Source of the DNA: a virus
Length of the DNA: 64,000 nt
Strand: one strand, 5' to 3'
Virus record (IMG/VR): IMGVR_UViG_3300024243_000006
Coordinates: 1-64,000 of that record
Shown here piece after piece: positions 9,182 through 61,798 of the stretch. The stretch's first letter is position 1. Each line of letters begins with the position of its first letter. The notes below the pieces were generated by a model. The model ran no database searches. It was not told where the DNA came from and saw only the letters and a program-made list of their open reading frames with translations. The position numbers were made by a program, and so were the translations under genes.

Positions 9182-9243
9182 ATACGCCTAAACTTGCAGC
9201 TACATTTTTTTTGATTAACAGTTTATACAATAAGGTAATTACA

Positions 9244-10638
9244 ATGGAACCAGTATATGACGACGGGTCCAGCATATGGTATGCTTACACCGTCGATGAA
9301 CTACACGGCATTACAGAGCCACGAAAGCATGTTGTTTTTCGTGGTTGGATTAAAACAATCAGACATTCCAAGGCCGGAATGTCATTCATTCACGTAACAG
9401 ATGGGAGCGCTTTGCGCCCGTATCAGATTTTCGTTAAGGAGTCTGACGTAGAGGGTTACGATGAGATTAAGAAGCTCACTTCTGGCTGCTCAATTGAAGT
9501 CTATGGCGAAGTCGTAGAATCAAAGGGTAAGGGTCAGGACTTTGAGCTTATCGCACAGAGCCTTAAGATTCATGGTTTGGTCGAAGACCCTGCCACGTAT
9601 CCTATTCAGGCCAAAGATACTTCAATGGAGTATCTCAGGTCTGTTGCTCACCTCAGACCACGCTCGCAGGTCTTCTCTTCTATTACGAGAGTAAGGACAG
9701 AGTTGGCTCATGCCACACAGAGCTTCTTCTACGGTAAGGGTTATCAGTGGATCCACACCCCGATCATTACAGGCAGTGATTGTGAAGGTGGTGGTGAAAT
9801 GTTTAGAGTCTCTACAGATTCTAAGGAAGAGTTCTTCGGTAAGCCTGCATTCCTCACTGTGTCTGGACAGTTGAACGTCGAACCATTTGCATGTTCAATG
9901 GGCAAGGTTTATACCTTCGGTCCTACGTTCAGAGCAGAGAACAGCCAGACCTCCAGGCACCTGTCTGAGTTCTGGATGATTGAGCCAGAGACTGCATTTT
10001 ACGATCTTGACGACAACGTCAAGCTTGCGACTGAGTTTCTACAATCAATCTTCAGAAGCTGCTTGGACTATAGATATGAGGATCTTGAGTACCTTGCTGG
10101 TCAGTTTAGAGAAGGTCAAGCTTTCCTATCTACCCTGCAAAAGGTAGTCTCCGAACCTCCGGAGAGGATGACATACACTGAGGCTATCAAGATCCTTGAA
10201 GCTACAGACCATCCTTTTGAGTTCCCTGTTTCTTGGGGAATCGATCTACAGTCGGAGCATGAGAAATTCCTTTGTGAATACGTCGGCGGTAAGATTCTTG
10301 TTGTCACAGATTATCCCAAGGATATCAAGGCTTTCTATATGAAGCTTAGTGAGGACGAGAAGACTGTCGGAGCAATGGATATTCTCCTGCCAGGAATTGG
10401 CGAGATTATCGGAGGCTCACAGCGAGAGGAAAAGTTCGATGTTCTTTTGAGAAGGATTCAGGAAATGGGTCTGGAACGAGAAGAGTACGAATGGTACCTC
10501 GACCTGAGAAAGTATGGCACCGTGCCTCACTCTGGATTCGGACTCGGCTTTGAACGAGCAGTACAGTATGTCACAGGTGTTCCCAACATTAGAGACACAA
10601 TCCCTTACCCAAGGGCTGTAGGAAAGATGGAGTACTGA
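9244..10638 (+). CDS. asnS: asparaginyl-tRNA synthetase
   Basis: A 464-residue class IIb synthetase. The N-terminal OB fold (VFRGWIKTIRHSKAGMSFIHV) would bind the anticodon. Motif 2 is TFRAENSQTSRHLSEFWM followed by IEPE, the AsnRS pattern; motif 3 is GFGLGFERAVQYVTG ending in the usual IRDTIPYPR. Reaction: ATP-dependent charging of tRNA-Asn. Start ATG 9244 behind AAGG. Two tRNAs with the Asn anticodon GTT are encoded at 48633 and 49170, the first with an unusual long-arm body, so the enzyme may serve the phage tRNAs. Confidence 0.93.
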   Translation: MEPVYDDGSSIWYAYTVDELHGITEPRKHVVFRGWIKTIRHSKAGMSFIHVTDGSALRPYQIFVKESDVEGYDEIKKLTSGCSIEVYGEVVESKGKGQDFELIAQSLKIHGLVEDPATYPIQAKDTSMEYLRSVAHLRPRSQVFSSITRVRTELAHATQSFFYGKGYQWIHTPIITGSDCEGGGEMFRVSTDSKEEFFGKPAFLTVSGQLNVEPFACSMGKVYTFGPTFRAENSQTSRHLSEFWMIEPETAFYDLDDNVKLATEFLQSIFRSCLDYRYEDLEYLAGQFREGQAFLSTLQKVVSEPPERMTYTEAIKILEATDHPFEFPVSWGIDLQSEHEKFLCEYVGGKILVVTDYPKDIKAFYMKLSEDEKTVGAMDILLPGIGEIIGGSQREEKFDVLLRRIQEMGLEREEYEWYLDLRKYGTVPHSGFGLGFERAVQYVTGVPNIRDTIPYPRAVGKMEY

Positions 10639-13091: not shown

Positions 13092-13507
13092 ATACGTCAC
13101 CAACTGAAAACTCCAATGGAACTAAGCGTTGGCATGTAAATGGTAAGCTTCATCGGCTTGGTGGACCTGCTGTTGAGCACTCCAATGGAACTAAGTATTG
13201 GTATGTAAATGGTAAGCGCCATCGGCTTGATGGACCTGCTGTTGAGTACGCCAATGGAACTAAGCATTGGTATGTGGAAGGCAAGCGTCATTGCATTGAT
13301 GGACCTGCTGTTGAGCTTTGCGATGGAGCTAACTATTGGTTTGCTGATGGTAAGCTTCATCGGCTTGACGGACCAGCCATTGAGTACGTCAATGGAACTA
13401 AGCATTGGTTTGTTGATGGCGTGGAATACAGCTTAGCTGATTACCTTGATTTGGTTTCCGAGGAAGTCCTTGAGGACATCGTGTTAAACCACTTACCGGG
13501 GTTCTGA
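13088..13507 (+). CDS. tandem W-NGK-HRLDGPA repeat protein 1 (5 units)
   Basis: Built from a 23-residue unit of the form NGTKYWYVNGKxHRLDGPAVEY, with four full units and a last one ending DGVEYS. A fixed C-terminal cap follows (SLADYLDLVSEEVLEDIVLN, then HLPGF). The unit resembles MORN/WG-type beta-hairpin repeats seen in phage and giant-virus proteins. Three paralogues follow in tandem, one base apart. Biochemical role unknown; such repeats usually form extended beta surfaces for binding. Confidence 0.8.
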   Translation: MNTSPTENSNGTKRWHVNGKLHRLGGPAVEHSNGTKYWYVNGKRHRLDGPAVEYANGTKHWYVEGKRHCIDGPAVELCDGANYWFADGKLHRLDGPAIEYVNGTKHWFVDGVEYSLADYLDLVSEEVLEDIVLNHLPGF

Positions 13508-13508
13508 A

Positions 13509-14006
13509 ATGACTACTGAGAAACCCACTGTTATTGAAAACTCGAATGGATATAAGTGTTGGTACACAAATGGTAAGCTTCATCGGCTTGATGGACCTGC
13601 CGTTGAGCGTTTCAATGGAACTAAGCGTTGGTATGTTGATGGTAAGCTTCATCGGCTTGATGGCCCTGCCATTGAGCTATTCAATGGAGATAAGTATTGG
13701 TATGTTGATGGTAAGCTTCATCGGCTTGACGGACCTGCCATGGAGTACGCCAATGGATCTAAGTATTGGTTTATAGATGGTAAGCGTCATCGCCTTGACG
13801 GACCTGCCATTGAGTACGCCAATGGGTCTAAGGAGTGGTATGTAAAAGGTAAGTTTCATCGGCTTGATGGCCCTGCCGTTGAGTACGCCAATGGAGATAA
13901 GTTTTGGTATGTTGATGGCGTGGAATACAGTTTAGCTGATTACCTTGACTTGGTTTCTGAAGAAGTCCTTGAGGATATTGTATTAAACCATTTACCGGGG
14001 TTCTGA
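13509..14006 (+). CDS. tandem W-NGK-HRLDGPA repeat protein 2 (6 units)
   Basis: Starts one base after the previous stop (ATG 13509). Six units of the same 23-residue repeat, with variation mainly at the residues around the Trp pair (CWYTNGK, RWYVDGK, EWYVKGK), then the same cap SLADYLDLVSEEVLEDIVLN and HLPGF. It is the longest member. The conserved core with variable exposed positions would suit a family of related binding proteins; function unknown. Confidence 0.8.
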   Translation: MTTEKPTVIENSNGYKCWYTNGKLHRLDGPAVERFNGTKRWYVDGKLHRLDGPAIELFNGDKYWYVDGKLHRLDGPAMEYANGSKYWFIDGKRHRLDGPAIEYANGSKEWYVKGKFHRLDGPAVEYANGDKFWYVDGVEYSLADYLDLVSEEVLEDIVLNHLPGF

Positions 14007-14007
14007 A

Positions 14008-14298
14008 ATGGCTACTGATAAACCAACTGTTACTGAGCATTTAAATGGAGATAAGTATTGGTATGTGCATGATAAGCTTCATCGGTTTGATGGCCCTGCC
14101 GTTGAGCGCACCAATGGAAATAAACTTTGGTATGTAAATGGTAAGTGTCATCGCCTTGACGGACCTGCTGTTGAGTTCGCTGACGGAACTAAGTATTGGT
14201 ATGTTGATGGCGTTCAGTACAGTTTAGCTGATTACCTTGATTTGGTTTCCGAGGAAGTCCTTGAAGACATCGTGTTAAACCATTTACCGGGGTTTTAA
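14008..14298 (+). CDS. tandem W-NGK-HRLDGPA repeat protein 3 (3 units)
   Basis: The shortest member, with three units and the constant C-terminal cap. The N terminus MATDKPTVTEHLNG aligns with proteins 2 and 4. One unit has lost the usual NGK (WYVHDKLHRF). Otherwise as for the neighbouring paralogues. Confidence 0.78.
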   Translation: MATDKPTVTEHLNGDKYWYVHDKLHRFDGPAVERTNGNKLWYVNGKCHRLDGPAVEFADGTKYWYVDGVQYSLADYLDLVSEEVLEDIVLNHLPGF

Positions 14299-14299
14299 A

Positions 14300-14728
14300 A
14301 TGACTACTGATGAACCCACTGTTACTGAGTACGCCAATGGATCTAAGCGTTGGCATGTAAATGGTAAGCTTCATCGGCTTGATGGACCTGCCATTGAATA
14401 CGCCAATGGAACTAAGTATTGGTATAAAAATGGTAAGCTTCATCGGCTTAATGGACCTGCCATTGAATACGCCGATGGAACTAAACATTGGCATGTAAAT
14501 GGTAAGCTTCATCGGCTTGATGGACCAGCCATTGAGTCCGCCGATGGATCTAAGTATTGGTATAAAAATGGTAAGCTTCATCGGCTTAATGGACCTGCCA
14601 TTGAATACGCCAATGGAAGTAAGCATTGGTATGCAAATGGCGTTCAGTACAGCTTAGCTGATTACCTTGATCTTGTTTCCGAGGATGTCCTTGAAGACAT
14701 TGTATTAAACCATTTGCCGGGGTTCTGA
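14300..14728 (+). CDS. tandem W-NGK-HRLDGPA repeat protein 4 (5 units)
   Basis: Five units arranged as a duplicated pair: a WHVNGKLHRLDGPA unit alternates with a WYKNGKLHRLNGPA unit twice, then a last unit and the common cap. The near identity of the two pairs points to a recent 138-base duplication. RNase HI starts one base after its stop, so the five genes may be co-transcribed. Confidence 0.8.
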   Translation: MTTDEPTVTEYANGSKRWHVNGKLHRLDGPAIEYANGTKYWYKNGKLHRLNGPAIEYADGTKHWHVNGKLHRLDGPAIESADGSKYWYKNGKLHRLNGPAIEYANGSKHWYANGVQYSLADYLDLVSEDVLEDIVLNHLPGF

Positions 14729-14729
14729 A

Positions 14730-15140
14730 ATGATAGTAATTTACACAGATGGTTCATGTAAACCAACTAATCCCGGGCCATGTAGCTCTGGTGTGGCGTT
14801 AGTAATTGACGGAGAAGTTGTAGAGTGCCGCTCCATGTTTCTTGGAGAGGGAACTAACAACGTCGGCGAGCTAACTGCTATTTCGATAGCATTAGATGTA
14901 TTGGAGTCACGAAATCTTTCGTGGAAATCCAGTACAATTATAACAGATTCCAAGTACGCAATCGGTGTATTAACCGGCGGTTGGAAAGCGAAGAAGAATG
15001 TTGAACTGATAAAAAATATCAAGGCAAAGCTTGAAAACTTTCCTAATACGGAACTCCAATGGATCAAGGGTCACAGTGGGGATAAGTTCAACGACTTGGT
15101 CGATGCTCTTGCTGGTCAAATCATCGATTCTAACGTCTAA
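14730..15140 (+). CDS. rnhA: ribonuclease HI
   Basis: 136 residues with the full catalytic set: YTDGSCKPTNPGP (first Asp) at the N terminus, NNVGELTAI (Glu) near 47, IITDSKYAIGVLTGGW (Asp) near 70, GHSGDKFNDLVDALA (His and last Asp) near 115. It cuts RNA in RNA-DNA hybrids; in phages it removes replication primers. Start ATG 14730. A family A promoter follows the gene. Confidence 0.92.
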   Translation: MIVIYTDGSCKPTNPGPCSSGVALVIDGEVVECRSMFLGEGTNNVGELTAISIALDVLESRNLSWKSSTIITDSKYAIGVLTGGWKAKKNVELIKNIKAKLENFPNTELQWIKGHSGDKFNDLVDALAGQIIDSNV

Positions 15141-21089: not shown

Positions 21090-22595
21090 ATGAGTTTTCT
21101 AAATATTATTCCGGCATCGGTTCTTACCGATAGTTACAAGGCTGGTCACTTCGAGCAGTATCCTGACGCAAACCAAATGACTGCATACGGTGAATTCCGT
21201 AAGCCGTTTGAGGGAATGGAGGATGAACGGATTGTCTTTCACGGCATTCGTTACATCGTTGAGAATTATCTCAACCGTCAGTGGACAGAGAGAGACGTAG
21301 AGAAGGCCGCACTGTTCTACAGCACACACAACGTGCCGTTTACAGAGTACCCTTTCCCGAAGGCTCTCTTCTTGAAGGCAGTCAGAGAGAATAATGGTTA
21401 TTTGCCAATCAAGCTTGAGGCTTTGCCCGAGGCTTCGGTCGTGTACGCACACACGCCTCTGTATCAGATTACAGCAGGTAAGGGTACAGAGTTTAATGAT
21501 AAGGAGTTCTCGCGGATCGTTACGTTTTTCGAGACTCTTCTGACTCAGGTATGGTACCCGTCGAATGTGGCTACGCTTTCGAGGCATACTCGTCAGGTTA
21601 TTGAGGACTATTTCGATCTTAGTGTCGATGCCGAAAATAACTGGCAGGTAGTATATAAGCTTCATGACTTTGGATTCCGAGGTGCCACTTGTGTTGAGGC
21701 AGCTTTGATCGGCGGTGTTGCTCACCTACTCTCGTTCGAGGGAAGTGATACAATGCCTGCCTGTTACTATGCTCAGTTTGAGCTTAATGACGGCAAGCCG
21801 GTAGCTATGAGTATCCCTGCAACTGAGCATAGTGTTATGACCAGTTGGGACACCGAGCTTGAAGCTGTGATGAACATGGTGGATAAGTACGGACATGGAG
21901 TGTTCGCTACGGTTGCTGATAGTTACGACTACACAGCTTTCCTGAGAGACATTCTTCCGGTTGTTGCCCCTCTTGTCAAAGAGAAGGGTGGAACCCATGT
22001 TGTTCGTCCTGATTCGGGTGATCCTGTTTCGTGTGTGTTGGAGGCTCTTGAGTATTGTGAGAAGGCTTATGGCAGCTATGTGAATAGCAAGGGCTACAAG
22101 GTTCTCTATAACTCCGCAGTTATCCAGGGTGATGGTATCAATCACTTTACCGTGAGAGATATCCTCAAGGCTGTTACTGATGCTGGCTGGAGTGCAGTGA
22201 ATGTTGCATTCGGTATGGGCGGCGGACTGTTGCAGAGACACAACCGTGACACCATGAGTATGGCAACCAAGCTCTGTCAGATCGAGTACGCAGACGGACG
22301 TGTGCGTGACGTGATGAAGACCCCTAAGACTGACGATGGTAAGTACAGTCTTCCCGGTCGTCTCAAGGTCGTAAGAATCGATGGTGTGGCTATGGCTGTC
22401 CCCGAGGAATGCGAAGGCGAGAGTGAGTTTGTAACTGTCTATGACTGTGGACCTGTCGATGATGCTTGGGATGAGACTTTTGATGAGACTCGTGCTCGTC
22501 TGAATGCTCAGTGGGCAGCGGCTCCTAAGACTGCTAACGTTGTTAGTGAGGCTCTTAGAGAGAAGGCTGAAAGAATCATCAGTACGCGAAAGTAA
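21090..22595 (+). CDS. nadV: nicotinamide phosphoribosyltransferase
   Basis: A 501-residue NAMPT/NadV protein: VLTDSYKAGH at the N terminus, KLHDFGFRGATCVEAALIGG near 190, SIPATEHSVMTSWDTE near 235 (catalytic His), HVVRPDSGDP near 305 and VIQGDGI near 345 (phosphoribosyl-pyrophosphate site). It makes NMN from nicotinamide and PRPP. With an NMNAT it forms the two-step salvage route that some phages use to rebuild NAD+ after host NAD-degrading defences (the NARP2 arrangement). Confidence 0.95.
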   Translation: MSFLNIIPASVLTDSYKAGHFEQYPDANQMTAYGEFRKPFEGMEDERIVFHGIRYIVENYLNRQWTERDVEKAALFYSTHNVPFTEYPFPKALFLKAVRENNGYLPIKLEALPEASVVYAHTPLYQITAGKGTEFNDKEFSRIVTFFETLLTQVWYPSNVATLSRHTRQVIEDYFDLSVDAENNWQVVYKLHDFGFRGATCVEAALIGGVAHLLSFEGSDTMPACYYAQFELNDGKPVAMSIPATEHSVMTSWDTELEAVMNMVDKYGHGVFATVADSYDYTAFLRDILPVVAPLVKEKGGTHVVRPDSGDPVSCVLEALEYCEKAYGSYVNSKGYKVLYNSAVIQGDGINHFTVRDILKAVTDAGWSAVNVAFGMGGGLLQRHNRDTMSMATKLCQIEYADGRVRDVMKTPKTDDGKYSLPGRLKVVRIDGVAMAVPEECEGESEFVTVYDCGPVDDAWDETFDETRARLNAQWAAAPKTANVVSEALREKAERIISTRK

Positions 22596-25404: not shown

Positions 25405-25788
25405 ATGGCAGATACATTTGTCGAGTATTTGATTGAGAATTTTGCAGAAAGAGTAGGAAGAGTTAGAGGCAATTCTCTTAACGAGAAGGTGGCCTTTTTG
25501 AGAGGTAGATATCTGAAGACCGCTCTGGATGGCCGAAAGGAATCCGAAGCAGGAAATGATACCTCTATCTATCGTTCTGCTTATGCTTCTGCGCACGAAG
25601 ATATAGGAAACATGCTTGTTGACTTCGATGAGTCTATCGAGTATCTTGAGACTGAGATCATCAGCTACATCGTAACGCTTATGGAAACTACCGCCGTTAA
25701 TAAGACTCCATCCTCCGCAGGGTATTTGGATGCTTATGGCTATATGGTTGCCGAGCTTAGAAGGGCTGTGGAGGAATCAAATGTTTGA
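25405..25788 (+). CDS. hypothetical protein, 127 aa
   Basis: ATG 25405 directly after the cupin stop. Helical and acidic; its end (YGYMVAELRRAVEESNV) overlaps the LysRS start. No family recognised. Confidence 0.6.
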   Translation: MADTFVEYLIENFAERVGRVRGNSLNEKVAFLRGRYLKTALDGRKESEAGNDTSIYRSAYASAHEDIGNMLVDFDESIEYLETEIISYIVTLMETTAVNKTPSSAGYLDAYGYMVAELRRAVEESNV

Positions 25789-27214
25789 GTTTGATAAGAG
25801 ACAGCTAAAGAAGCTTTCTGAAATGAGAGCAGAAGGTGTCGATCCTTATCCCGTGGGGGAAAGCGGTGTGATGCCTCTGTCCGTAATTGATGGGCTAAGA
25901 GAGTTCTCGATGGGAGTTCTTGAGGGAACTGATCCTGTAAGAGTATTCGGAAGAGTTCGTTTTAAGAATGAAATGGGAAAGCTTGGGTTCGGAAGGATCG
26001 AAGATGATGGCGGCCGAGTACAGATATGTGTTCGAAAGAACGAAGTATCTCCGGAAGCTTTCAAGGCTTGGAAGAGACTGGATCTGGGTGACTGGGTTTA
26101 TGTCTCTGGTACATATGGTCGTACACGTTCGGGCGAGCTTACGATCTTCGTAACGGATATTAGTCTTGCATCGAAGTGTGTCTCCCCTATGCCTGATAAG
26201 CTGTCCGGCTTCACGGATGTAGAGCAGGAGTACCGTAAGAGGTATCTTCATCTTGCTGTATCGTCTGAGGCAAGGGACCTGTTTAAGCGCAGGTCCAACA
26301 CAGTCTCTCTCATGAGAAGGATGCTTGAGGGTCGAGGATTCATGGAGGTAGAGACTCCTATGCTCCACTCCATTCCTGGCGGAGCTTTGGCTAAGCCATT
26401 CGTGACGCATCACAATGCACTTAATCAGGAAATGTTTCTTAGGATTGCTCCAGAGCTTCATCTGAAGAGACTGTTGGTTGGCGGATTCCCCAGGGTATTC
26501 GAGATTAACAGATGCTTTAGGAATGAGGGAATTGGAACTAAGTACAATCCTGAATTTACTACGGTTGAGCTTTACCAAGCTCATGCAACATATGATGACC
26601 TTATCGAATTGATCTCGATTATTGTTTCAGAGCTTGGACAGTTTGCTTCGTCAGACAATCCTGTGGACTTTGATAACATTACGCGAATCAGATTCGATGA
26701 TGCCATTCGGAATCTTGGGATTGAAGATCCTTGGAACGTCGATCAGCTAAGGGCATTCTGGGTTGCTAACCGTGGAGAGAGCGAAAGCTTGCCGGATACT
26801 GTTGGTGATTGGTATGATATCATCTTCGATGCATTCATTCAGGATACGCTAATTGATCCTACCTTTATCACTAACCATCCTTCCGAGACTTCACCTCTCG
26901 CAAGAAAGACTGATGGAGACTCAAGGACTGTTGATAGGTTCGAGCTTTACATTCGAGGCATGGAAGTGTCTGATGGATGGACAGAGCTCAATGATCCTGT
27001 TGAACAGGCTGAGAATTTCGTTCAGCAGCTTGCACGAAGAGAGGGCGGGGATGAAGAGGCTATGCTTTTTGATGAGGATTTTGTAAGAGCATTGAGTTAT
27101 GGTATGCCACCAGCAGCAGGAGTCGGACTTGGTATTGACAGGCTGATGATGGTACTTTGTAACAAGAAGAGCATTCGTGACGTAATCCTATTCCCTACTC
27201 TACGTAGGGAATAG
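25781..27214 (+). CDS. lysS: lysyl-tRNA synthetase, class II
   Basis: ATG 25781 behind GAGGAA. A 477-residue class IIb enzyme: OB-fold anticodon domain (VRVFGRVRFKNEMGKLGF), motif 1 RGFMEVETPMLHSIPGGALA, motif 2 INRCFRNEGIGTKYNPEFTT with VELYQA, motif 3 AGVGLGIDRLMM followed by IRDVILFPTLR. Charges tRNA-Lys with ATP. Two phage tRNA-Lys genes are present: a normal TTT one (52481) and a long-arm CTT one (49962). A perfect hairpin overlaps the gene's end. Confidence 0.94.
   Translation: MFEFDKRQLKKLSEMRAEGVDPYPVGESGVMPLSVIDGLREFSMGVLEGTDPVRVFGRVRFKNEMGKLGFGRIEDDGGRVQICVRKNEVSPEAFKAWKRLDLGDWVYVSGTYGRTRSGELTIFVTDISLASKCVSPMPDKLSGFTDVEQEYRKRYLHLAVSSEARDLFKRRSNTVSLMRRMLEGRGFMEVETPMLHSIPGGALAKPFVTHHNALNQEMFLRIAPELHLKRLLVGGFPRVFEINRCFRNEGIGTKYNPEFTTVELYQAHATYDDLIELISIIVSELGQFASSDNPVDFDNITRIRFDDAIRNLGIEDPWNVDQLRAFWVANRGESESLPDTVGDWYDIIFDAFIQDTLIDPTFITNHPSETSPLARKTDGDSRTVDRFELYIRGMEVSDGWTELNDPVEQAENFVQQLARREGGDEEAMLFDEDFVRALSYGMPPAAGVGLGIDRLMMVLCNKKSIRDVILFPTLRRE
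27189..27211 (+). terminator. hairpin overlapping lysS end
   Basis: ATTCCCTAC and GTAGGGAAT form nine perfect pairs around a five-base loop, covering the last codons of lysS up to its TAG stop. No long T-tract follows, so it may be a terminator without T-run or an mRNA-end stabiliser. Confidence 0.45.
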
Positions 27215-40062: not shown

Positions 40063-40080
40063 TGCTCCCATGAGGTGAGC

Positions 40081-40956
40081 ATGAAACCAGTAGTTCTTTT
40101 TGATATGGATGGCACATTAACTGAGCCAAGAAAAACAGTAGAAGCTCCGATGCTTCGGGCGTTAGAGACGCTGATGCAATACGCTGTAGTAGGCATTGTA
40201 TCCGGCAGTGATTACGATTACATCTATCAACAGATGGAACTTGATAAAAATGATTTAAAAGATGTTTTGATTTATCCTTGCAATGGGACAAAGAGATATG
40301 TCTATGATCAAGTTAAGAAACGTTGGGAAAATACGTTTTCTGTCGATATGAAAGAGGAGATCGGGGGCGAGAAGCTTTATAGTTTAATGGAGCTACTTTT
40401 AGATTGGCAGCTATTCTATCTTGAATCTGCAAAGAAAAATGGTTTCAAGACGCCCCTTACGGGTTTGCACTTACAGAACAGAGGCTCCATGATTAACTGG
40501 TGCCCAATTGGACGAGGCGCAGATCACGACGAAAGGAAATTGTTTCAGGACTATGATGCAAATACTTCTTGGCGAGAAGAGACCCTTCCCTTGTTGGAAG
40601 ATGAAATCGGACTAAGAGTAGAAGGAGTAACAGTTGTCAAAGGCGGATCAACATCATTCGACATCTACCCAGACGGATGGGATAAAAGATTTGTCAAAAG
40701 ATTCCACGAAGGACAAGAACTCTATTTCGTTGGAGATCGATGCGAAAAAGGTGGGAACGATTACGAGCTTTACGCCGATCTTAAAAGATCCAAAGAAAGT
40801 CGCACCTTTGAGCGCAAACAGCTATTCTTTCCCTGGTCTAAAGTCAATCAAGATGAGTGCAAATATCAAGATTCTTTTAACACCGGATCTCCGGAAGAAA
40901 CAAGCAGGATCATTGAAGAGGATCTCATCCCGCGTATCGTTAAGGCGCGAGTTTGA
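40081..40956 (+). CDS. phosphomannomutase-like HAD-IIB phosphatase
   Basis: ATG 40081 behind GAGGTGAGC. HAD motif 1 LFDMDGTLTEPRK at the start, motif 2 VGIVSGSD near 37, a cap domain with GGSTSFDIYPDGWDKR near 190 and FVGDRCEKGGNDYEL near 220 (motif 4 Asp pair). This is the eukaryotic-type PMM2 layout, which interconverts mannose-6-P and mannose-1-P, rather than the bacterial type. About 35 residues after NDYELY (Lys/Arg-rich) are atypical. The substrate may differ. Confidence 0.78.
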   Translation: MKPVVLFDMDGTLTEPRKTVEAPMLRALETLMQYAVVGIVSGSDYDYIYQQMELDKNDLKDVLIYPCNGTKRYVYDQVKKRWENTFSVDMKEEIGGEKLYSLMELLLDWQLFYLESAKKNGFKTPLTGLHLQNRGSMINWCPIGRGADHDERKLFQDYDANTSWREETLPLLEDEIGLRVEGVTVVKGGSTSFDIYPDGWDKRFVKRFHEGQELYFVGDRCEKGGNDYELYADLKRSKESRTFERKQLFFPWSKVNQDECKYQDSFNTGSPEETSRIIEEDLIPRIVKARV

Positions 40957-41673: not shown

Positions 41674-41725
41674 AGTACTGTCACTCCTACTAAGATTAAG
41701 TATAATAGTAGGACTGGAGGTTCTA

Positions 41726-42413
41726 ATGAATTCGATCATATTGGAAATTAAAGCTGCCGAAGGCGGCACAGATGCAAAGCTCCTTGTTGATGAACAGTTG
41801 GCCATTTATAGGAGATACTGTTCTCGGAGGTCTCTTTGAGTTAGCTCTCTTAGATTCCAGAAGCGGTTTTATCAGATGCAGAGTCAGCGGCAAAAACGTC
41901 AAAAAACATTTTAGGCATGAGCCTGGAGGCCACAGATGGCAAAGGGTTCCTCCGACAGAGAGACGAGGAAGGGTTCATACTTCTACGATCACTGTCGCTG
42001 TCCTACCGGAAGTAACTGAATCTGAAGTTAAGATTAGCGAAAAAGATTTAGAATGGAAAGCCTTTAGGGGTTCTGGTCCCGGCGGTCAGCATAGAAACAA
42101 AACTGATTCTGCTGTGTCGCTTCACCATAAGCCTACTGGAATCAAGATCCGTTCTGAATCTCAAAAGAGTCAGAAGCAGAATAAGGACACCGCTCTTGCA
42201 ATATTGAGAGCGAGGTTGCATTCTGAGCAGAGAGAGTCTCAGTCTTTGCGACGCAGTAATATGAGGAAGAGCCAAGTGGGCTCAGGTATGCGCGCCGACA
42301 AAATCAGGACGATCAGGTTGCAGGACGGACAAGTTACGGATCACAACACTGGAAAAAGAATCTCTGCGAAAAAATATTTGCGCGGAGACTTGGAAGGTCT
42401 ATTTGAAAAGTAA
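41726..42413 (+). CDS. RF1-type peptide chain release factor with prfB-like +1 frameshift site
   Basis: ATG 41726 behind GGAGG. The 5' frame reads ILEIKAAEGGTDAKLLVDEQ and RRYCSRRSL, then TGA at 41837. Just before it stands CGGAGG-TCT-CTT-TGA, the same order (internal Shine-Dalgarno, three bases, CTT, TGA) as the prfB frameshift site. Skipping one base continues homology: GGHRWQRVPPTERRGRVHTS, TVAVLPEV, then GPGGQHRNKTDSAV. GGQ is the catalytic loop; P-x-T (PPT) is the RF1-type codon motif for UAA/UAG. About 228 residues, lacking domain 1. The C terminus is basic. Confidence 0.85.
41826..41840 (+). promoter_or_regulatory. programmed +1 frameshift site (prfB-like)
   Basis: CGGAGGTCTCTTTGA: internal Shine-Dalgarno GGAGG, three-base spacer, slippery CTT and the in-frame TGA stop. 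The E. coli prfB site has AGGGGG, TAT, CTT, TGA in the same spacing. Confidence 0.8.
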
Positions 42414-55957: not shown

Positions 55958-56035
55958 GGGGAATTAGCTCAATTGGCCAGAGCGGCAGATTCTAGACCTG
56001 CGACAGTGTGGGTTCGAGCCCCACATTCCCTACCA
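55958..56035 (+). tRNA. tRNA with CTA anticodon (amber suppressor)
   Basis: Acceptor GGGGAAT pairs with ATTCCCT; D arm TAGCTCAATTGGCCAGAGC; anticodon arm GCAGA-TTCTAGA-CCTGC gives CTA, complementary to UAG; T loop TTCGAGC; CCA at 56033-56035. The outermost anticodon pair next to the loop is A-C. Class I body. Confidence 0.85.
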
Positions 56036-61061: not shown

Positions 61062-61283
61062 ATGTCATATACAGAACAGGTTCGCAATCTACCAGAAGGA
61101 ACCCTTTCAAAAGTTCTCCAGTCCGCTCACAGAATTGCTCGTGAGAAATTGGAAGCTGATTGGGGCCGGAAGGCAGAGTACGCAGCTTATAGAGTTCTGT
61201 ACTATGATGAGTCTACTTGGCGTCAAGCTTTGGAAGACAATGATATAAGTCTAAGTGGTGGAACGGTAGACACGCAGCGCTGA
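61062..61283 (+). CDS. hypothetical protein wedged between two tRNA-Leu, 73 aa
   Basis: ATG 61062 is two bases after the CCA of tRNA-Leu(TAG), with GGAG of the acceptor arm as ribosome site. Helical: YTEQVRNLPEGTLSKVLQSA and ALEDNDIS. Its last 35 bases, including the stop, are inside tRNA-Leu(GAG). Overlap at both ends with tRNAs is remarkable. Confidence 0.6.
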   Translation: MSYTEQVRNLPEGTLSKVLQSAHRIAREKLEADWGRKAEYAAYRVLYYDESTWRQALEDNDISLSGGTVDTQR

Positions 61284-61333
61284 GTACGTTGTCCGGCAAT
61301 CCGGGTGAAGGTTCAAATCCTTTCTTAGGCACC
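61249..61333 (+). tRNA. tRNA-Leu(GAG)
   Basis: Acceptor GTCTAAG pairs with CTTAGGC; anticodon arm CAGCG-CTGAGTA-CGTTG gives GAG; variable arm CCGG/CCGG; T loop TTCAAAT; CCA incomplete (ACCT). Shares its first 35 bases with a gene. Confidence 0.87.
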
Positions 61334-61711: not shown

Positions 61712-61798
61712 GCCCAGGTGGCGGAATTGGTAGACGCGCCAGATTAAGGATCTGGTTCCTGAAACGGAGTGAAGGTTCGATCCCTTTCCTGGGCACCA
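61712..61798 (+). tRNA. tRNA-Leu(AAG)
   Basis: Acceptor GCCCAGG pairs with CCTGGGC; anticodon arm CCAGA-TTAAGGA-TCTGG gives AAG; long variable arm; T loop TTCGATC; CCA at 61796-61798. Confidence 0.9.

Follow-up and report, generated by a model that had tools for sequence, protein, structure and literature searches.

A family of phage genes encodes a release factor of the RF1 type whose reading frame is broken early by a stop codon. We consider it reasonably probable that this gate serves as a sensor of termination capacity, in which slow reading of a stop codon would license the synthesis of phage RF1. In the gene studied here the gate is real and not a sequencing error. It is not a chance arrangement either, because a +1 shift at a CTT-stop recurs in 84 distinct genes (less than 95% identical), this one included, nearly all at the same codon.

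The gene lies in a window of 64,000 nucleotides, the whole stretch of DNA that was analysed, which matches a viral contig of 395,127 bases over positions 246503-310502 at 99.98% identity. The contig belongs to a huge phage and carries about 45 tRNAs and one tmRNA. The window also holds two Asp/Lys/Asn-type aminoacyl-tRNA synthetases of class II (9211-10638 and 25730-27214), a NAMPT-like gene (21090-22595) and a phosphomannomutase-like gene (40075-40956). At about 13100-14730, the alignment of window and contig reveals a repeat region of self-similar stretches in inverted orientation order with 82-92% identity.

An RF1-type gene interrupted within domain 2

The gene is read from the plus strand. 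Upstream of its start codon ATG (41726-41728), the sequence holds a GGAGG initiation Shine-Dalgarno at a distance of 5 nt (41716-41720) and, further 5', a TATAAT (41701-41706). The frame-0 ORF consists of 37 codons plus TGA (41726-41839; MNSIILEIKAAEGG...RRSL) and covers the first part of RF1 domain 2. At its end an internal SD-like stimulator, GGAGG (41826-41830), stands 3 nt before the slip codon CTT of Leu37 (41834-41836), with TCT between the two, and the gate stop TGA (41837-41839) follows directly. The +1 frame (41838-42413, from GAG at 41838 to TAA at 42411-42413) supplies the remaining domain 2, the P-P-T recognition loop and the GGQ domain. The prfB-type +1 cassette GGAGG-TCT-CTT-TGA of the first-pass annotation, with homology resuming one base on, can be read directly from these letters, and if T41837 is skipped, a joined product of 228 aa results. 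The Pfam domain PCRF matches residues 2-90 of this product, spanning the junction, and the Pfam domain RF-1 residues 98-206.

The same annotation had called the factor RF1-type, and profile, motif and fold comparisons bear this out. Against the NCBIfam profiles the joined protein scores 239.7 bits with prfA, 158.9 with prfB and 83.8 with prfH; the last value is below the RFH cut-off of 166.65 bits, and the 240 bits with prfA miss the equivalog cut-off of 423 bits. Its first residue aligns to position 113 of the prfA profile, and domain 1, which contacts RF3, is absent. Judged by these profiles, the window protein is an RF1-type factor without domain 1 rather than a full RF1 equivalog. The P-x-T recognition loop is present (VPPTERRGRVHTS), and the GGQ release motif at residues 119-121 is invariant across a 33-member alignment. 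Among proteins in the PDB, the closest relative by sequence is RF1 of Thermotoga. A structure model computed with unshifted homologues as input alignment reached a pLDDT of 91.2 (45 from the single sequence alone); its top Foldseek matches are ribosome-bound RF1 with TM-scores of up to 0.92, and the junction falls at the start of the predicted strand 38-45. In predicted fold as in profile and sequence the window protein is therefore nearer to RF1 than to RF2. Its codon specificity, UAA and UAG and not UGA, is the one expected from the recognition loop alone; the earlier claim that a P-P-T factor should not read the UGA of its own gene thus agrees with loop and profile.

Among viral proteins, the best match by structure carries the name PrfB and is 164 aa long. 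Gated genes are cut short in databases, and this length is consistent with an annotation of frame 1 only. A search for PrmC gave nothing above the cut-off, and one for RF3 just weak matches to RF3-like GTPases. The contig encodes a second protein with an RF-1 (GGQ) domain (G001:C1:149081-149353), which at about 119 aa is ArfB-like by size.

Gates across the phage family

Related genes were gathered from IMG/VR scans, a bacterial-genome scan and a huge-phage collection and collapsed at 95% protein identity, so that the sample represents the closest relatives of three queries. Every member of the family is a metagenomic contig; no isolate was found, and a DNA-level search of isolate phages gave nothing. 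Looking for the cassette in related phages, a check already named in the first-pass annotation, yielded the 84 shift genes, in a family whose sequences are commonly just 45-60% identical. The codon before the gate stop is constant, being CTT in 84/84, with a share of 15.7% among the Leu codons of these genes; at two other near-invariant Leu positions CTT occupies 13/83 and 22/80 (about 16% and 28%). The stop itself varies (TGA 68, TAG 13, TAA 3), and the base after it is mostly C (59; G 18, A 5, T 2). An Asp directly after the shift is encoded by GAC in 44 genes and by GAT in one, against 59:41 elsewhere in the same genes (binomial 1e-9, from codon counts that ignore relatedness).

An SD-like duplex of -4 kcal/mol or stronger was found in 72 of the 84 genes, usually 3 nt before the slip codon, and the other 12 have a weak one or none at all; the median is -9.9 kcal/mol at the gate vs -2.9 at control positions. 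In the 395-kb genome, the pattern of SD, CTT and stop occurs four times with about three expected, and the SD-strong occurrence at 382845 is out of the reading frame of its ORF. Folding downstream of the shift sites gave no marked signal (mean z -0.57). In prfB it is established that a tRNA on CUU can shift its pairing forward by one base while termination at the adjacent stop is slow (PMC5009743). Since the phage gene has the elements of the prfB site, +1 slippage at its gate is likely by analogy.

Two tRNA-Leu genes of the window, with GAG and AAG anticodons (61249-61333 and 61712-61798), would both read the slip codon CUU, which is also the commonest Leu codon of this phage (37%).

An interrupted frame in itself invites the reading of a sequencing error, a pseudogene or two proteins made by internal initiation, and the window +1 frame does have an ATG at 41772. 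The downstream frames are intact in 84 distinct genes, though, and the junction falls within one domain. In 34 of the 84 genes, moreover, no ATG, GTG or TTG separates the gate from the last preceding stop of the +1 frame, and many of them have their first start codon only past the recognition loop; internal initiation therefore cannot yield the same protein there. We regard this explanation as having a negligible chance.

Apart from the shift genes, 27 relatives show no frame change and instead an early in-frame UGA at codons 36-51. Some of them hold two in-frame stops, and the first is TGA in 27/27. The following base is A in 17 and C in 10, never G or T. Many of these UGAs coincide with a Trp of bacterial RF1 (consensus GWK), and Trp is the residue usually inserted at UGA readthrough. 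Reassignment of UGA was considered for these phages and is contradicted for 12 records by uninterrupted long genes: their ribonucleotide reductase or terminase genes contain no internal stops. Four release factor genes of this class terminate with TGA. We infer from the sequences that readthrough is the likeliest route past the in-frame UGA; the accompanying scan for suppressor tRNAs covered the flanks only. Folding after the in-frame UGAs is stronger than in shuffled sequences (mean z -1.65), and an alignment revealed no shared structure, so that this folding is at most suggestive of a readthrough signal. In L327, L339, L079, L086 and L336, hairpins are predicted about 8 nt 3' of the in-frame UGA and may stimulate readthrough.

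Retention and exchange of the gate can be followed on a tree of the phage family and bacterial RF1, which stems from a quick search and has many weak inner forks. The phage family forms a single clade apart from bacterial RF1 with a support of 99. Relatives with an uninterrupted frame, which the first-pass annotation took to speak against a programmed site, do occur but as a minority of nine vs the 84 shifted genes: six ungated genes are placed at the base of the phage clade and three are scattered within the gated part, where 111 of 114 rows keep the gate. Among the shift genes, the type of stop switches at least 15 times on this tree. Frameshift and in-frame stop also replace each other at three homologous sites. 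The first, codon 37/38, is used by the main shift group and has an in-frame UGA in L079, L336 and others; L017 and L049 retain the stop here, preceded by CTA or CTC, and do not change frame. The second, at codon ~47, has an in-frame UGA in L053, L075, L080 and L259 and a CTT-TGA shift in L192 and L331. The third, SI-stop-LT, shows an in-frame UGA in L011, L084, L077 and L014 and a CTT-TAG shift in L321.

On the simplest reading of these sequences, the early stop itself would be kept by selection and the route past it would be replaceable, in which case the shift cassette would have more than one origin within this clade of phage genes. The prfB gate is readily abolished by single-base deletions under selection (PMC13245932), and given such easy loss, the long retention in the phage family suggests a benefit.

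A proposed sensor of termination capacity and competing readings

In the working that we propose, a ribosome that pauses over CUU (P site) and the stop (A site) would slip by +1, from CUU to UUU, aided by the internal SD, and the full-length factor would be made only after this slip; one branch of the family would achieve the equivalent through an in-frame UGA that needs readthrough. As long as the host release factors keep up, a peptide of 36-51 residues would be released. Once they become limiting, for example under the translation load of a huge phage, phage RF1 would be made and would take UAA and UAG. At UAA it would free RF2 for UGA, which would make the negative loop of a UGA gate an indirect one; the loop of UAG and UAA gates would be direct.

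Several known properties of release factors are relevant here. They are far scarcer than ribosomes, and UAA is read by both RF1 and RF2, most of it falling to RF1 if RF2 is weak (PMC5373646). Because the two share UAA and their relative activity sets the split, phage RF1 would relieve a lagging RF2 at this codon. A truncated RF1 without domain 1 works in vivo (PMC1586002). Each of the surveyed phage records holds a single RF1-type factor and no further complete release factor, so that phage genes ending in UGA would depend on host RF2. The regulatory reading of the gate, that is, sensing and its benefit, is inferred.

The first-pass annotation had gone one step further and proposed that frameshifting reports host RF2 activity through a factor that cannot read the stop limiting it. 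Extended to the family, this would make the gate a one-way reporter whose product is unable to act on its own gate, an improbable reading in our view. It draws on the predominance of TGA, which is the stop at 68/84 shift sites and the one that comes first in frame in 27/27 readthrough genes, and on the P-P-T-type loop of most family members. The predominance of UGA may, however, reflect its being the leakiest stop, and 13 gates are UAG and three UAA, most of them with P-x-T/N loops. At least 9 of the 13 UAG-gated genes keep such a loop, and their product could therefore read its own gate. Genes with a P-x-T loop and a UAG or UAA gate might thus limit themselves directly, which is not expected of those with P-P-T and a UGA gate, the majority, to which the window phage belongs. 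The original proposal keeps its plausibility for UGA members, as does the inability of the product to read its limiting stop where UGA meets P-P-T. Neither is supported as a rule of the family, in which 16/84 shift sites use UAG or UAA; the variants taken together are better accommodated by a sensor that responds to slow termination of any kind.

Two further rules for the choice of stop were tried and given up. The first UAG genes, with SPLD and SPTD loops, suggested that the product never reads its gate stop; the full set of 84 genes, where most UAG gates carry P-x-T/N loops, speaks against this opposite specificity. An association between gate stop and recognition loop was not supported once relatedness was allowed for, in a test on automatic loop calls that mislabelled L055 and L321. 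The gate stop also showed no correlation with the stop usage of the phage itself or of neighbouring genes. The window phage uses the standard code, and its 420 ORFs of at least 100 aa end in TAA (181), TGA (172) and TAG (67).

A tRNA with a CUA anticodon (window 55958-56035; Rfam tRNA, 54 bits) resembles an amber suppressor and would compete with phage RF1 at UAG, where many phage genes end. In L005, L007, L063, L095, L213 and L241, S-P-L or S-P-T loops mix RF2-like and RF1-like residues and might recognise other stops or more of them. In L010, L061, L089, L306, L315, L316 and L049 the P-x-T loop is lost or shortened and the gate is kept; these factors may lack codon specificity.

The main rival to the sensor is a fixed attenuator, a gate that senses nothing and sets a low, constant share of ribosomes making the factor, since release factor in excess would do harm. 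We rate it as unlikely, though it would be expected to leave much the same sequence traces as a sensor. The free exchange of stop types among shift genes, the exchange of shift and readthrough and the lack of a relation between gate stop and stop usage all suit it, and an excess of RF2 is toxic to B. subtilis, one of RF1 mildly toxic (PMC12421855). A weak start site, however, would be a simpler means of attenuation, the cassette retains a next base that weakens termination, and the output of prfB-kind cassettes is known to follow the level of release factor (PMC5009743).

A different role, rescue or quality control by a protein without domain 1 on stalled ribosomes, with stalling opening the gate, strikes us as very improbable. 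The missing domain is shared with RFH, the seven members without a P-x-T loop are still gated, and the phage also has a tmRNA and a second RF-1-domain protein; most members, on the other hand, have an intact RF1-type loop, and the prfA score of the window protein far exceeds that for prfH.

Taken together with the sensor, a wider proposal can be framed for the whole clade, in which UGA, UAG and UAA gates, by shift or readthrough, are interchangeable at one and the same position, the gate as such is selected, and slow termination licenses synthesis, often at a stop that lies outside the range of the factor itself, which would amount to cross-regulation of host RF2 and viral RF1. We advance it tentatively, at somewhat short of an even chance.

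Comparison with known recoding systems

Autoregulation of release factors by frameshifting has so far been treated as a matter of RF2. In bacteria, the level of RF2 sets the frameshift output of the prfB cassette at UGA, and a review describes in-frame-stop readthrough as absent from RF2 genes and an RF1 counterpart as unknown (PMC5009743). Of the more than 12,000 bacterial genomes in a survey, 8,164 had a prfB gene with the motif, which contained TGA in 98.6% and TAA in 1.4% of cases and TAG in no case; prfA was without any programmed site (PMC12421855). The phage genes share with prfB the early in-frame stop in a release factor gene, the next base that is mostly C, the SD-like stretch 3 nt before CTT, as in the spacing of E. 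coli, and the resumption in +1. They differ in that the gene is RF1-type without domain 1, its product is not expected to read the gate stop, and the gates include TAG, absent from bacterial prfB sites (PMC12421855), next to TGA and TAA. The phage site lies at codon 37 in domain 2, at the position of a Trp in RF1, whereas the prfB site is at codon 26 of RF2; in its place the phage cassette is convergent with that of prfB.

Two other groups of factors resemble the phage protein itself. The RF1 of phages with code 4, in which UGA is reassigned, is likewise phage-encoded and reads UAA and UAG (PMC10746230); in gated phages, by contrast, TGA terminates many genes and the code shows no general reassignment, and as far as checked the interrupting stop is specific to the release factor gene. 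PrfH/RFH also lacks domain 1 and keeps GGQ, but the window protein scores 84 bits with RFH vs 240 with RF1 and has a P-P-T loop, and the portions of the RFH literature consulted report no programmed gate.

For phages we found no report of such a gate in the literature searched, which was mostly non-subscription, and priority is not established. A viral RF1 family holds shift and readthrough gates in ~111 distinct genes with naturally exchanged stops and mechanisms, and this exchange permits testing which element of the gate is under selection and whether a gate has to be readable by the protein that it controls. Within the same literature, the only close parallel is offered by the release factors of Mimivirus (R726) and Megavirus (mg280), viral genes that combine UGA-C readthrough with a +1 shift at CUU-UAG-C or CUU-UAA-C (PMC3521657). 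There the factor is of the eukaryotic/archaeal type, and both recodings occur in one gene in two viruses; the phage family has a bacterial RF1 with one gate type per gene in ~111 phage lineages. The parallel suggests that large viruses of bacteria and of amoebae reached the same control separately.
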